In this document: positions 25,082 through 48,733 of the stretch, one piece after another | Layout: the number at the start of each line of letters is the position of its first letter | Position numbering within the stretch: the first letter of the stretch is position 1 | DNA from: Ruania alkalisoli | GTDB taxonomy: Bacteria; Actinomycetota; Actinomycetes; Actinomycetales; Beutenbergiaceae | Reading direction: 5' to 3' | Length of the DNA: 64,000 nt | Assembly: GCF_014960965.1 (NCBI RefSeq) | Contig: NZ_CP063169.1 | Coordinates: forward strand, 3,939,581-4,003,580 | Made by a program: the position numbers and the translations under genes | Notes under the pieces: generated by a model | What the model was told of the DNA's origin: nothing | Database searches by the model: none | The model's input: only the letters and a program-made list of their open reading frames with translations

Positions 25082-26545
25082 TCACTGCTGAAGTCCACGT
25101 GCCCGCCCGACGGCGGCCGCCCACCTCTGTCTGCGGGTATCCGCCCGTGTGGGGTCGAGTCGGGGGGTAAAGATGTCGGGGCCGTCCTGGCCCAAGGGCG
25201 TGGGCGGTGCATCTGTCCAGAGCCCGGCCACGTCCCCGGCCAGGTGCGCGGCCCCGAGGGCGGATAGGTCACTCACCCGCGCCCGGTGCACCTGCCGGCC
25301 GGAGAGGTCGGCCTGGTGCTGCATGAGCCAGTCGTTGGCGGACCCGCCGCCGTCGGCGAGCACGGTCGCCACCGGAGTACCGGCCCTGGACACCGCCTCG
25401 AGCACGTCCTCGACCTGCAGCACGACGGCGTCAACGGCCGCCCGGGCAATCTCGGCGCGCCCGGTGCCCAGCGTCATCCCGGTCAGCGTGGCTTGCGCGG
25501 CCGTGTCCCACCAGGGCGCCCCCAGGCCGGAGAATGCCGGGACCAGATCGACTCCGCCATCCCCGACCCCAACGGCCAGGTCGGCCAGTTCAGACACACC
25601 CACCCCGAGCAGATCGGCCGCCCACACCAAGGTGGCACCCGAGGCGAGGATGTTGCCCTCCAGGGCGAGCTGCGCCGTCGGGCCTCGTTGCCAGGCCACC
25701 GTGCGTACGAGCCCTCCCGACGACGGAGCCTCCTCGGCCAGTGCCATCACCGAGGAGCCGGTGCCGTAGGTGACCTTCACCTCGCCGGGGCGCCGGGCGC
25801 CGTGGCCGTACAGGCTGGCATGGGAGTCGCCGAGAACGGCGGTCAGGGGTGCGCTGACGCCGCCCCAGTCGGCAGTGGCCGCCGGTTCATCGGAGGCCAC
25901 CACGTGCGGCAGAGCTTCGGCCGGGATGGCGAAGCGGTCGAGCAACTCGGGTGCCCAGCCCGTGGTGGCCAGGTCGAGCAGCTGGGTGCGGCTGGCGTTG
26001 CCGGCTTCGATGCGGTGCTCACCGGTGATCCGGGTGACGATCCAGGAGTCCACGGTGCCCAGGCAGATCTCGCCGGCCCGGGCGCGGCGGCGGCCGGAGT
26101 CCACCTGGTCCAGCAGCCAGGCGAACTTCAGTGCGGAGAACATCGGATCCACGGGGAGCCCGGTGATCTCCTGCACCCGTGCGGCATCGCCGGCACCGAA
26201 GGCGTTCGCTCCGTCGCTGGTGCGCCGGTCCTGCCAGCCGAGAACGGGTCCGAGCGGTGCGCCGGTGCGGCGGTCCCAGATCAGTGCCGACTCGCGCTGG
26301 GTACTCAGGCCGACACTCACCACGGCACCGCTGTTCTCGACAGCGGCGTCGGCCATGGCGTCACGTACGGCGGAGTGCACGCTGGCGAGCAGCTCGGTGG
26401 CATCCTGCTCCACCCACCCCGGCCGCGGGTGGGTCAGGGAGACCGGCACGCTCGCCCGCCCCACCACCCGGCCACGCGGATCCACCACCAGTGCCTTCGT
26501 GGCGCTGGTGCCCTGGTCCACGCTGACCACGAGCGGTTCAGGCAC
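25082..26545 (-). CDS. FGGY-family sugar kinase (candidate apulose kinase)
   Basis: 487 aa. The N-terminal ATP-site motif [10 protein letters not shown] (about 9-18) and the C-terminal [17 protein letters not shown] are the two FGGY halves, so the enzyme is complete. GTG 26545 overlaps the stop of the transketolase C-subunit gene by 8 bp. It most resembles xylulokinase/glycerol kinase types. In this operon it should phosphorylate the ketose made by the isomerase, which then feeds the transketolase. Confidence 0.88.
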
Positions 26546-27497
26546 GGGCCATCGCCGCCTTCGCGGCTTCGGCGAGGTGCTCGGGATCGAGACCGAAGTG
26601 GGTGAGCAGTGCGTTGGTACTACCCGTCGGGGCGAAGTCGTGCAGGCCGAGGATCTCCACCGGAACTCGCTGCCCCGCGGGCAGGGCGGCCACCAGACTG
26701 GCCACGGCGGCCCCGAGCCCGCCTGACACATTGGCCTCCTCGACGGTCACGATCGCGCGCGTCTGCGCGGCGGCTGCACGCACAGCCTCGGCGTCGAACG
26801 GGGCGATCCAGGAGGCGTTCAGCACCCGCGCGGTGACGCCGTCAGCGGCGAGTGCTTCGGCCGCCTGGAGCGCGCGGGAGACCATGGTGCCGACGGCGAC
26901 AATGGTGACATCTGCGCCGTCACACAGTTGCTGGAACCGGCCCCGCTCGAGGGCGGAGGACTCCGGCAGGTCGGGCACCTTGTGCCGGCCCACCCTCATG
27001 AATGCCGGGCGCGGCTCGGCGGCGAGCATCCGCACCGCGTCCCGGGTCTGTGCACGATCCGCGGGAAGCACAATGTCCAGCCCGGGAAGGGCGCGCAGCC
27101 AGGAGAGATCTTCCACCGAGTGGTGGGTGGGGCCGAGTTCGCCGTAGGCCATGCCGGGGCTCATCCCACACAGGATCACCGGGTGCTGGGAGTAGGCCAC
27201 GTCCGCCTTGATCTGCTCCAGGGACCGGCCAGTGAGGAAGGGCGCGGCAGCGCAGACGAAGGGCACGAAGCCCATACTGGCAAGCCCGGCACCCACGCCC
27301 ACCATGTTCTGCTCGGCGATCCCGACATTGATCAGCCGGTCCGGGAAGCGTTCGCGGAACTCCACCAGGTTGCTCGAGCCGACCGAGTCGTTGCACACGG
27401 CCACGATCCGGGTGTCGGCCGCCGCGAGCGCCATGAGCTCCTCGGCGAACGCCTTGCGGTTGTCGTGCACAGGAGCTGTGACGTCGACGGCCGTCAT
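26538..27497 (-). CDS. Transketolase-like C-terminal subunit
   Basis: 319 aa, covering the pyrimidine-binding and C-terminal domains of transketolase. N-V-G-I-A-E-Q-N-M-V-G (about 60-70) carries the catalytic Glu that activates thiamine diphosphate, and P-T-H-H-S-V-E-D-L follows near residue 118. The ATG overlaps the stop of the 90-codon repeat ORF (ATGA) and has a GGGGG site upstream. Together with the N-subunit it matches AptB-type enzymes that act on apulose 4-phosphate; the substrate is inferred. Confidence 0.9.
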   Translation of the reverse strand: MTAVDVTAPVHDNRKAFAEELMALAAADTRIVAVCNDSVGSSNLVEFRERFPDRLINVGIAEQNMVGVGAGLASMGFVPFVCAAAPFLTGRSLEQIKADVAYSQHPVILCGMSPGMAYGELGPTHHSVEDLSWLRALPGLDIVLPADRAQTRDAVRMLAAEPRPAFMRVGRHKVPDLPESSALERGRFQQLCDGADVTIVAVGTMVSRALQAAEALAADGVTARVLNASWIAPFDAEAVRAAAAQTRAIVTVEEANVSGGLGAAVASLVAALPAGQRVPVEILGLHDFAPTGSTNALLTHFGLDPEHLAEAAKAAMARA

Positions 27498-27766
27498 GCT
27501 GTCCCCCTTTCGCCTGCCCACTGCGGTGCCTCACTCCGGTGTACCTCGTTCCTCGGCGCCCCTACGCGGGGGCTCCTCGCGCTCATGCTGTGGCTCCTCG
27601 TGCACGACCACTGCGGTGCCTCACTCCGGTGCACCTCGTTCCTCGGCGCCCCTACGCGGGGGCTCCTCGCGCTCATGCTGTGGCTCCTCGTGCACGACCA
27701 CTGCGGTGCCTCACTCCGGTGCACCTCGTTCCTCGGCGCCCCTACGCGGGGGCTCCTCGCGCTCAT
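27494..27766 (-). CDS. In-frame 90-codon repeat ORF bridging the transketolase genes
   Basis: This ORF encodes 90 residues as three 30-residue units (M-S-A-R-S-P-R-V-G-A-P-R-N-E-V-H-R-S-E-A ...), the third cut after 23 residues and ending A-G-E-R-G-T-A. Its ATG overlaps the stop of the N-subunit gene (ATGA) and its TGA overlaps the ATG of the C-subunit gene (ATGA). The product would be very basic and shows no known domain. It may be a real peptide or, more likely, a translated spacer that keeps ribosomes coupled between subunits. Confidence 0.4.
   Translation of the reverse strand: MSARSPRVGAPRNEVHRSEAPQWSCTRSHSMSARSPRVGAPRNEVHRSEAPQWSCTRSHSMSARSPRVGAPRNEVHRSEAPQWAGERGTA
27518..27766 (-). 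repeat. 90-bp tandem repeat, 2.8 copies
   Basis: Units run 27766-27677, 27676-27587 and 27586-27518 on the minus strand (the last partial, 69 bp). The copies are identical except one base at 27542, which is synonymous (GTG to GTA, Val) in the ORF. Each unit can fold: GCCCC-CGCGTA-GGGGC, and GGTGC/GCACC around a GGTGCACC palindrome. The near-identity points to recent duplication, slippage or gene conversion. Confidence 0.97.
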
Positions 27767-28674
27767 GCCAACTCCAGGAGTGCCTGATCGGCCTGCTCGC
27801 TCGTCGGCACCTTGTGGTGCCACTCGACCCGGTCCTCCATGAAGCTGATTCCTTTGCCCTTGATCGTGTTGGCGATGACCGCGACGGGGCCACCCGTGGT
27901 GGACGGTGCGTATGCCTCGGCCAGTGCCAGGTGGTTGTGCCCGTCCACGGACCGCACCTCGCACCCGAAGGCGGCGAGCCGCGCGTCCAGTGGGTCAAGT
28001 CCGTTGGTGTCCTCCGTGCGGGCTCCCTGCTGCAGCCGGTTCCGGTCGACCACCAGAGTGAGGTTCTCAAGGCCATAATGCGCCGCGGCCATGAGGGCCT
28101 CCCAGTTACTGCCCTCCTGCAGCTCGCCGTCTCCGGCCACCACGAAAACCCGTGCCGGCGAGCCGGCCAGGTGTGCACCCACCGCCTGCCCCACGGCGAC
28201 CGGCAGGCCGTGTCCAAGCGGCCCGGTGTTCGTCTCGACACCCGGAACCTTCACGCGGTTGGGGTGACCGTTCAGGGCGGACCCTTCAGCCATGAACGTG
28301 TCCAGCTCGTTCGGGGAGAAATAGCCGCAAGAGGCGAGTGTCGCGTACAAGGCTGCGGCGCAGTGGCCCTTGCTGAGGATGAACCGGTCGCGATCCTTGG
28401 GCAGGTCGGCCGGGTCGATCCGCAACGTCCCATAGAAGAGGGTCGTGAGAATGTCGGTCACCGACATGTCCCCGCCCACGTGCCCCTGGCGCGCGGTCAT
28501 GATCATCTGCACCACGCGGCGTCTGATGGCCTGCGCTCGACCGGCCAGCAAGGCCGCCTTCTCCGCGGGCTCGGCCGCAGCGATGCGATCGCGCTCAGCG
28601 CGCCAGATCAGCACCTGCTCGAGATCCGTCGTCAGCATCTCCGCATATCCATTCAATAGTGATCTTGTGTGCAT
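27763..28674 (-). CDS. Transketolase-like N-terminal subunit
   Basis: 303 aa from ATG 28674; an in-frame ATG at 28638 (M-L-T-T-D-L-E-Q) would give 291 aa and leave the shared TTGAATGGATA motif upstream. It has the thiamine-diphosphate domain: G-H-V-G-G-D-M-S, S-K-G-H-C-A-A-A-L-Y and the V-V-A-G-D-G-E-L-Q-E-G diphosphate-Mg site. It is the first gene of the operon that runs through the C-subunit, kinase, isomerase and SorC regulator. It is probably AptA-like. Confidence 0.9.
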   Translation of the reverse strand: MHTRSLLNGYAEMLTTDLEQVLIWRAERDRIAAAEPAEKAALLAGRAQAIRRRVVQMIMTARQGHVGGDMSVTDILTTLFYGTLRIDPADLPKDRDRFILSKGHCAAALYATLASCGYFSPNELDTFMAEGSALNGHPNRVKVPGVETNTGPLGHGLPVAVGQAVGAHLAGSPARVFVVAGDGELQEGSNWEALMAAAHYGLENLTLVVDRNRLQQGARTEDTNGLDPLDARLAAFGCEVRSVDGHNHLALAEAYAPSTTGGPVAVIANTIKGKGISFMEDRVEWHHKVPTSEQADQALLELA

Positions 28675-46951: not shown

Positions 46952-48733
46952 TCACTGTGACGTCAAGGAGCCCGCAGGCTCGGGGCGATGAACGCCGGCC
47001 GGCCGGTAGCTCAGCGATCGACTCACGCCGAGCAGGTCGGCGAGGTACCAGACGATGGCCAACCACATCTCGGTCCCGCGCAGGCCGGGGGTCTCGGCCA
47101 GTGGGTCCCGCCCTGTCCCGGAGTCGGCGGCGAACGCGAACCCCTCACCGGGGCGCCAGTGGCTCAGGGCGTCAGCGAGCAGGCGCGCGGCCACCTGCCG
47201 GATCTCCTGCTGGCGGTAGTCACTCATGCGACCCGCAAGCCAGAGCGGATGCGCCACATCCAGCACGTTGCAGGCGTTCTGGCGATCAGCCGCGAAGTAA
47301 CGGGCATCCTGAGCGTGCGCAAGCACCGTGTCCACGACGCGCTCGGGGTGCGGCAGGGGCAGCCCGAACTGGGCGAACGACCCTCGCGCCGTGCGATAGA
47401 AGCCATTCACGGTCTCCAGCCGGCCCGAGCGCGGGTCGTCGGCGCCCCACATCCCCGTCCTCGGGTCCACGTGGGTGTGCAACCAGCCGAACAGCCCGGC
47501 CGCGGTGGCGGCACTGTGTGGTGTGCCGGCGCGGGTATTCCACAGCACCGCCGTCCCGAGCATGTCGGCGACGTTGCTGCTGCGCCACGGACTCCCGCGC
47601 CAGGGGAGTGAATCCAGCAGCGCGATCACTCCATCGGCACCGAGCTCGTCCACTGCGTGGATCGGGTGAGGCAGGCTGGACCCGAGCACCTCGAGCGCAT
47701 ACCCCACGCATAGCACGTGATAATGCGCATCGTCGACGCTCAGATCGGTCACTCTCGGCCCGGGGTGCCCGGAGGCATCGAGCTCGGCGATCATGCCGGA
47801 GGCCGGGTCCTGCAGCCCGCGTAGCCACGCGACGTGCTCTTCGCGGCTCAGCTGTGACGGGACGTCGCCGGTCAGGTAGGCCGCCACCTCGATCGCGTCG
47901 CAATGGGCGCGTACCGACGGCGCGTGCCCCGGCGCATCGACGTACCGGCCGGTGGCCGCGTCCCAGGATCTCGCGAGCACTTCCTCCGCCTGCTCGCGCA
48001 CCATCTGGTCGAACGCGCGCAGCTGCTCAGCCAGCGCGGGATCACCCGACGGCACAGGTCCACCGGAGGACACAGGTCCACCGGAGGGCACAGGTCCACT
48101 GGAGGGCACAGAGGCGGCCGTGGGCGGAGCGAGCTCGGGCACCCGCCACTTGCGCACCGTCGCCGGGTTCCCGGCGACGATCGCCCCGGCCGGCACGTCC
48201 TTGGTCACGATCGACCCAGCTCCGACGACGGCGCGGTCACCGATCGTGATCCCGTCCAGGACCATCACGTGCGAACCGATCCAGACGTCGTCGCCGATGG
48301 TGATGCCCCGCTGGGAGGTCGGCTGCTTGAAGACGGGCAGGTCCGGGTCGGTGATCGTGTGGTTGAAGGCCAGCATCGACGTGTGGGCGCCGATCCGCAC
48401 CGAGTGGCCGAGCCGGATGTTGCCCCGGATCACGCAGAACGGGTTGATCGTGCAGTTCGGGCCCGTCAGCAGCGTGCCCGTCAAGTAGGCGTGGCCGGAG
48501 ATGTAGGAGCTGCGCCCGAGCGTCAGCGTCTCTACCTGGATGGCGGCCAGCGGTGAGATGAAGCAGCGCTCACCGATCGAGGAGTCCGGCCGCACGCGCA
48601 GGAACTGCTCTTGCTGGGCGAGCTGCTCGGCCTTCTGCTCTTCACTGGCCTCAACCCAGAAGAACCAGGAGGAGTAGTCGTAGTGGTCGCGGTCGAAGGG
48701 GTTCGTCTCGATACCGGTCCTGGTCTCGCTCAT
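46952..48733 (-). CDS. Hexapeptide acyltransferase fused to alpha/alpha-toroid-like domain
   Basis: 593 aa. Residues about 45-200 are a left-handed beta-helix acyltransferase, with N-H-T-I-T-D near 125 (likely catalytic His) and I-G-D-D-V-W-I-G-S-H-V-M-V-L-D-G as typical hexapeptide coils. A Pro/Ser/Gly linker (about 208-228) made of 6-residue repeats joins it to a helical domain (about 230-585) that looks like an alpha/alpha toroid of polysaccharide enzymes. An acetyl- or acyl-sugar processing role is inferred. The ATG overlaps the stop of the upstream 911-aa gene (ATGA). Confidence 0.8.
   Translation of the reverse strand: MSETRTGIETNPFDRDHYDYSSWFFWVEASEEQKAEQLAQQEQFLRVRPDSSIGERCFISPLAAIQVETLTLGRSSYISGHAYLTGTLLTGPNCTINPFCVIRGNIRLGHSVRIGAHTSMLAFNHTITDPDLPVFKQPTSQRGITIGDDVWIGSHVMVLDGITIGDRAVVGAGSIVTKDVPAGAIVAGNPATVRKWRVPELAPPTAASVPSSGPVPSGGPVSSGGPVPSGDPALAEQLRAFDQMVREQAEEVLARSWDAATGRYVDAPGHAPSVRAHCDAIEVAAYLTGDVPSQLSREEHVAWLRGLQDPASGMIAELDASGHPGPRVTDLSVDDAHYHVLCVGYALEVLGSSLPHPIHAVDELGADGVIALLDSLPWRGSPWRSSNVADMLGTAVLWNTRAGTPHSAATAAGLFGWLHTHVDPRTGMWGADDPRSGRLETVNGFYRTARGSFAQFGLPLPHPERVVDTVLAHAQDARYFAADRQNACNVLDVAHPLWLAGRMSDYRQQEIRQVAARLLADALSHWRPGEGFAFAADSGTGRDPLAETPGLRGTEMWLAIVWYLADLLGVSRSLSYRPAGVHRPEPAGSLTSQ
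48054..48107 (-). repeat. 18-bp tandem repeat, 3 copies, in the linker
   Basis: Three 18-bp units (CACAGGTCCACCGGAGGR, plus strand) encode the Gly-Pro-Val-x-Ser-Gly linker between the two domains. The units differ at one or two bases. The repeat number is likely to vary between strains without breaking the frame. Confidence 0.9.

Follow-up and report, generated by a model that had tools for sequence, protein, structure and literature searches.

A probable MIRU-like mobile hairpin, in three tandem units, between the transketolase subunit genes of Ruania alkalisoli

The window considered here, a stretch of 64,000 nucleotides from Ruania alkalisoli (genome G000; contig NZ_CP063169.1, positions 3,939,581 to 4,003,580), carries on its minus strand the genes for the N-terminal and C-terminal subunits of a transketolase, and an FGGY-type kinase gene, assigned by Pfam, comes after the C-subunit gene. 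The space between the two subunit genes is occupied by a tandem array of 90-nt units that forms an open reading frame (ORF) joined to each of its neighbours by an ATGA overlap. In window coordinates, the features are as follows.

27763..28674, minus strand: transketolase N-terminal subunit gene (Pfam PF00456, Transketolase_N)
27763..27766, minus strand: upstream DTGA (ATGA), which holds the N-subunit stop and the element ORF start
27494..27766, minus strand: element ORF, 90 codons plus TGA, 273 nt, running from the ATGA at the N-subunit stop to the one at the C-subunit start
27679..27768, minus strand: repeat unit 1, 90 nt, adjoining the N-subunit gene
27692..27768, minus strand: unit 1 hairpin (from fold and covariation), whose outer stem takes in bases of the upstream gene's stop
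27718..27742, minus strand: apical stem of unit 1, covarying (alignment columns 33-57)
27589..27678, minus strand: repeat unit 2, 90 nt, identical to unit 1
27498..27588, minus strand: repeat unit 3, whose tail differs from those of units 1 and 2 and resembles the single unit of the relative G004 (L038)
27503..27510, minus strand: AAAGGGGG, a Shine-Dalgarno-like stretch in the unit 3 tail ahead of the C-subunit start (read from the sequence; family-wide duplex energies)
27494..27497, minus strand: downstream DTGA (ATGA), which holds the element ORF stop and the C-subunit start, with the ATG at 27497
26538..27497, minus strand: transketolase C-terminal subunit gene (Pfam PF02779 and PF02780, Transket_pyr and Transketolase_C)

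A sequence-only reading of the same DNA had described an ORF bridging both subunit genes through ATGA overlaps, and this description holds in sequence, coordinates and frame. The same reading had counted three near-identical 90-bp units that differ only synonymously. The repeat is real, but TRF gives 2.8 copies rather than three (99% matches, score 495), and the synonymous-only difference applies to the first 69 nt from the ATG, over which unit 3 departs from units 1 and 2 by one change (GTG/GTA), its tail then being different. Units 1 and 2 are identical across all 90 nt. Because the focal units are 90 nt long, the array reads as one frame.

The unit is dispersed through the genome. A genome search for it, one of the checks that had been proposed, returned 18 matches in R. 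alkalisoli at E < 2e-6, and a covariance model places 20 units at 14 sites, as singles and as arrays of two or three; a 21st match, with an E of 0.26, was left uncounted. With copies dispersed in this manner, a tandem repeat confined to one locus (a simple VNTR or minisatellite) is rejected. The gene pairs that carry the element in this genome, as named by Pfam, include nuoB-nuoC, mraY-murD and oligopeptide ABC ATPases, together with luciferase-MarR, ThuA-GFO/IDH/MocA and GntR-CN hydrolase. At L012 (2010-2124), the opening codons of the CN-hydrolase gene are those of the element (MSARSPH...), and its G004 orthologue (L078) opens differently; the element appears to have given the protein at L012 its N-terminus. 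At L014, the element is followed by an aldehyde dehydrogenase ORF (1030-1926, 299 codons) that matches only positions 5-215 of a 461-position Pfam profile and is possibly truncated.

The sites of insertion were characterized at 74 positions in nine genomes, which represent the better-scoring part of a longer match list together with the sites of R. alkalisoli itself; four of the 16 first own-genome stretches (L021-L024), which were partial matches inside genes, were excluded after reading. The element starts at ATGA in 55 of the 74 and at GTGA in 18 (73/74 together). Its TGA closes an ORF of at least 100 codons at 62 sites, compared with 376 of 2655 control words (P 8e-41), the controls being the other ATGA, GTGA and TTGA words on both strands of the same loci. 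The exceptions comprise 11 sites at which the TGA closes no ORF of at least 100 codons and one site without the TGA. At the far end, the DTGA in which the element ORF stops is the start of an ORF with at least 100 codons at 41 of the 74 sites, and of the next unit or an ORF with fewer than 100 codons at 12; at 17 sites the element ORF continues in frame, and at the remaining four it does neither. Elements are oriented as the surrounding genes, along transcription. Units 89 nt long chain through ATGA overlaps, and those 87 or 90 nt long are read through. The same arrangement recurs at 25 additional sites, of which 24 belong to other genera and one to the own genome: the TGA closes an ORF of at least 100 codons in 22 (21 at ATGA or GTGA and one, L208, at CTGA), and the distance to the following start is 2 mod 3 in 16, 0 in six and 1 in none, no start being found in three. 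Random scatter out of frame had been named beforehand as an outcome that would refute the sequence-only reading; the copies are indeed scattered, but they lie at non-random DTGA junctions and in frame.

Besides its reading frame, the element has a hairpin. Unit 1 is predicted to fold at -37 kcal/mol with a z of -2.08, five of 200 shuffles being equally good. The structure was evaluated in an alignment of 66 first units, from which eight of the 74 (L018, L073, L020, L091, L017, L045, L041 and L066) were left out for indels, truncation or a missing TGA; these exclusions removed four of the 17 multi-genome groups from the orthologue comparisons. Each group contributed a single site to the permutation tests (50 and 47 of 54 groups). 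In this alignment, pairing is found in 87.2% of cells, 17 of the 26 pairs have changed on both sides, and 140 cells carry a two-sided change against 43.6 after shuffling (0/500). The covariation score of 0.279 drops to 0.02-0.09 once the partner is slid, and one apical pair is A-U in 32 units and G-C in 31. Taken pair by pair, the permutation p is below 0.05 in 15 of the 26, distributed over all three stems (50 groups), and most of the others barely vary. An unconstrained RNAalifold run recovers the inner part of the hairpin (19 pairs), and the pairing is replicated in 20 sequences outside the alignment, five of the 25 further sites (L184, L191, L202, L205 and L208) having been left out, with a paired fraction of 0.896 against a shuffle maximum of 0.873 (n=1000). 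The outermost pairs reach the host gene: the first base of the DTGA is paired in 20 of 50 groups (14.4 expected), and the two host-gene bases before it in 30 and 41 of 50 (16.6 and 25.4 expected). At two different sites, L018 and L073, 12 extra nt are present at the same place in the hairpin, and the orthologues L046 and L033 are without them.

A structure of this kind could be the object of selection in its own right. REP elements are dispersed intergenic hairpins, and a comparable regulatory or mRNA-stability hairpin would protect or punctuate the message, with the ORF secondary; such a role is compatible with the element being mobile. The strength of the covariation and its replication argue for it. 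Differences between orthologous copies point the other way, since 35 pairs were gained or lost by one-sided change against 13 kept by two-sided change, besides 20 kept through one-sided change and nine other differences; in-place compensation happens but is not dominant. The focal site illustrates this mixture, as the G004 unit and unit 1 differ by one compensated pair and three gained or lost, and unit 3 carries just one half of that compensated change. Quasipalindrome correction can also yield such covariation, as could the mobility machinery, and a search of 27400-27900 against Rfam gave no known RNA family. Selection for an RNA function ahead of the frame is a possible explanation, although on the whole an unlikely one.

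Comparison with relatives reveals the same sites without the element. The joined flanks of 24 sites were searched against the eight genomes of the genus, and 40 places belonging to 18 sites were read. Clean empty places, in which the junction has a DTGA and the alignment is free of gaps for 10 columns around it, account for 17 of the 40 (10 of the 18 sites); a further 19 have DTGA with a gap nearby, and four are not aligned to DTGA. At L092, the filled site has GTGA and the empty relative ATGA. For the focal site, the proposed check of copy number in relatives gives three units in R. alkalisoli, a single unit in G004 (L038) and none in G006 and G003, in both of which the site is clean and empty. 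These empty sites, together with the 20 units at 14 sites, bear out the earlier suggestion of a mobile-type repeat; its qualification as tuned to the operon finds no support, given that unlike gene pairs carry the same element and that two relatives do without it at this very junction. Where L010 has a full element, L106 (G004:C1:1279107-1279410) has a short insert built solely from the element's ends, apparently what an internal deletion has left behind.

The history of the focal site can be approached through its flanks, which match those of R. alkalisoli in 188 of 200 bases in G006 and in 162 of 200 in G004, and through unit 3, which has six differences in 89 nt from the G004 unit. Either a clean loss in G006 or separate gains in G000 and G004 would produce this distribution, and we favour loss because unit 3 and the G004 unit have a common tail. 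Unit 3 is probably the oldest unit at this site. Traces of insertion are seen in the junctions themselves, whose left and right bases match at -3, -2, -1 and +4 (47 groups; 0/2000 permutations) and more weakly at 0 (p 0.0155), -4 (p 0.017) and +7 (p 0.0115); the pattern suggests a duplication of about eight bases around the DTGA.

The sequence-only reading had also suggested a translated spacer that determines the ratio of subunits; in its fuller form, this would be an operon-specific spacer acting through the copy number of the repeat. The array does have the shape of a translated linker, to judge from its in-frame units coupled at both ends, and its copy number varies by species as such a spacer might. 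The role assigned to it is nevertheless unsupported: the same element occupies 14 sites in unlike operons, the 3/1/0 series among relatives includes an empty site in G006, which is nearer in its flanks than the unit-bearing G004, and the peptide, as described below, is not conserved as a protein. Control of the subunit ratio is accordingly an improbable function for the array.

The frame of the element is preserved to a degree that its peptide is not. From the element start to the downstream start, the distance is 2 mod 3 in 37 of 47 groups, 0 in eight and 1 in two, the frame being kept in 45 of 47 (P 1.6e-6). In-frame stops are found in none of the 66 aligned copies, against 6.4 in column shuffles, of which 1 in 1000 reached zero; sense frames 1 and 2 contain stops in 36 and 22 of the 66 copies, in line with shuffles. 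Two of the antisense frames, 1 and 2, likewise contain almost no stops (one and two of 66; 6.0 and 1.9 when shuffled), so that the open-frame count alone is not specific and the frame-length result is the stronger. Shine-Dalgarno-like stretches precede both starts, with duplex energies of -8.0 at the element start and -8.9 at the downstream start, against a background of -4.1 (47 groups). In 19 orthologous comparisons, pN is 0.083 and pS 0.069, and entropy at codon positions 1, 2 and 3 is 0.51, 0.47 and 0.45. The best reading of these figures is that the frame would be under selection and the peptide sequence would not. A functional small peptide encoded by the element could draw on the 30-aa consensus M/V-SARSPRxGxPRxEVxRSEAPQ, recognisable at most sites and in both genera, but it is disfavoured to the point of being very improbable by a pN that is not below pS, by a third codon position no more variable than the first and second, and by the Pfam search of the focal 90-codon ORF, which found no match.

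Equally remote is a REP element moved by a RAYT (Y1 tyrosine) transposase, for which the short dispersed hairpins would speak, but from which these copies differ in lying at stop/start overlaps with an open frame, in an insertion bound to DTGA with duplication, and in the absence of Y1_Tnp (PF01797) from all 16 element-bearing genomes searched (it occurs in one of 16 others). No mobilising enzyme was identified in the element-bearing genomes, in which Y1_Tnp was sought.

The reading preferred here, and regarded as highly probable, is that the array consists of three units of a dispersed, non-autonomous, MIRU-like mobile hairpin that sits in coupled junctions and preserves their coupling. The original observation is real but was under-read, since the transketolase junction is just one of the places occupied by a mobile family that has specialised in translational coupling. 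In the proposed mechanism, an element of about 86-90 nt would enter the 4-base DTGA stop/start overlap in the direction of transcription, and a short duplication on insertion would leave DTGA at both of its ends, each copy combining an imperfect hairpin with an open frame of about 29-30 codons. A ribosome finishing the upstream gene at the TGA would restart at the overlapping ATG or GTG and read the element, whose ORF would either stop within the DTGA at which the downstream gene starts or run in frame with that gene, the purine-rich tail supplying a ribosome-binding stretch. Because selection appears to act on the open frame but not on the peptide, the element is best viewed as a passenger that keeps operon coupling; its effect on the host would be nearly neutral, and it would survive solely where coupling stays unbroken. 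At the focal site, a single unit, as in G004, may have received a further unit at its DTGA, after which a 90-nt duplication would have followed, with the frames fused.

How such an element might reach its targets is suggested by its right arm, which tends to complement the DTGA's first base and the two host bases before it. This match is site-specific (20, 30 and 41 of 50 groups paired, against 14, 17 and 25 when permuted). The idea that the arm finds translation junctions by base pairing is put forward tentatively and is rather doubtful; the arm either guides the element to stop/start overlaps or gets rewritten from the target after arrival. No mobile element is known to target translational coupling through pairing.

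All eight genomes of the genus that were examined carry the element, and 16 genomes of other genera in the family yielded one weak partial match. In the order- and class-wide searches, which scored 10-11 candidates per genome under strict filters and from which weak copies may escape, 16 of 396 genomes of the order were matched, namely the eight of this genus, seven of a genus in another family, and G331; the G331 copy (L208) starts at CTGA instead of ATGA or GTGA and was not accepted as a member. In the class sample of 394 genomes, six were matched: G000, G031, G671 (from another order), G725, G738 and G487. The matches read in G725, G738 and G487 are other hairpin repeats, none at DTGA, and were rejected as members. 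G671 has a copy coupled by ATGA (L143) and a second (L149), which begins in an ATGA, closes an ORF of 185 open codons and stands 1 mod 3 from the next ATGA, its own ORF ending a few bases inside the next frame; a third candidate in that genome (L154) is not at DTGA and was not accepted. Among 72,556 plasmid records and 50,697 phage records there was no element match, and spread through either vehicle was rejected on this basis. Similar-looking hairpin repeats of the genus g146, away from DTGA junctions, were noted at L145, L150 and L155 (G725), L144 (G738) and L154 (G671); they perhaps represent a broader family of hairpins that gave rise to the coupled element.

The closest known parallel is provided by the MIRUs of mycobacteria, apparently mobile sequences that insert at start codons and whose internal ORF is coupled with a spacing of -4 nt (PMC12548453, citing Supply et al. 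1997), an insertion thought likely to have little effect on the target gene or to limit harm to it (PMC12548453). Their units measure 77 and 53 bp and occur in tandem (PMC4213456, PMC2657100), their copy number differs (PMC9392950), and sizes, 41 locations and proposed roles have been given (PMC2734929). Those at senX3-regX3 are described as existing only in M. leprae and the tuberculosis complex (PMC4213456), and at rnc-fpg, species without the repeats have the gene pair just a few bases apart (PMC2734929). In 2009 their function was described as not well understood (PMC2734929), and in 2025 they are still called only 'apparently mobile' (PMC12548453).

The present element resembles MIRUs in being short, dispersed and single or tandem (20 units, 14 sites), in its gene-wise orientation at stop/start junctions (73/74 ATGA or GTGA; 62/74 with a TGA that ends an ORF of at least 100 codons), and in an internal ORF coupled downstream by a 4-nt overlap in 37 of 47 groups, with eight in frame and two neither. 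It differs in the bacteria that carry it, which fall into two genera outside the order of the PPE-rich, Mycobacterium-like genus of this class plus one genome of a further family, and in its unit of 86-90 nt. The MIRU passages cited mention neither a covarying hairpin nor a junction duplication, nor a comparison of frame with peptide, all of which are presented here. By analogy with MIRU descriptions rather than by sequence alignment, the element can be considered MIRU-like in every functional respect tested. Its model, run against 40 Mycobacterium-like genomes, gave 16 weak matches (E 0.002-1), of which six were read and none are elements. It is not classed as a MIRU because it lies outside the mycobacteria and because the matches read from those 40 genomes include no true copy. 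The literature collection that was searched lists no comparable elements from bacteria other than mycobacteria. With the present element, the MIRU architecture is seen in further actinobacteria, and close relatives offer a single site in filled and empty states and with one unit or several. Mobility, clean loss and the influence on coupled translation can therefore be tested in bacteria other than mycobacteria. Two pressures, for an open frame and for a paired hairpin, are moreover parted by the data from any peptide requirement.

Other families of small repeats share single traits with the element. Its inverted-repeat ends, in which the outer stem pairs above permutation, and its target duplication, at about -3 to +4 around the DTGA, recall MITEs. 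Enterobacterial RU sequences are small, mobile and MITE-like, measure 103-168 bp and are reported with open reading frames (PMC2759123), but that description states no tie to stop/start overlaps.

Elsewhere in the window, at 48043-48111, TRF reports an 18-bp tandem repeat of 3.8 copies (score 110) inside a 593-aa ORF on the minus strand, where it encodes an SGGPV-type linker.
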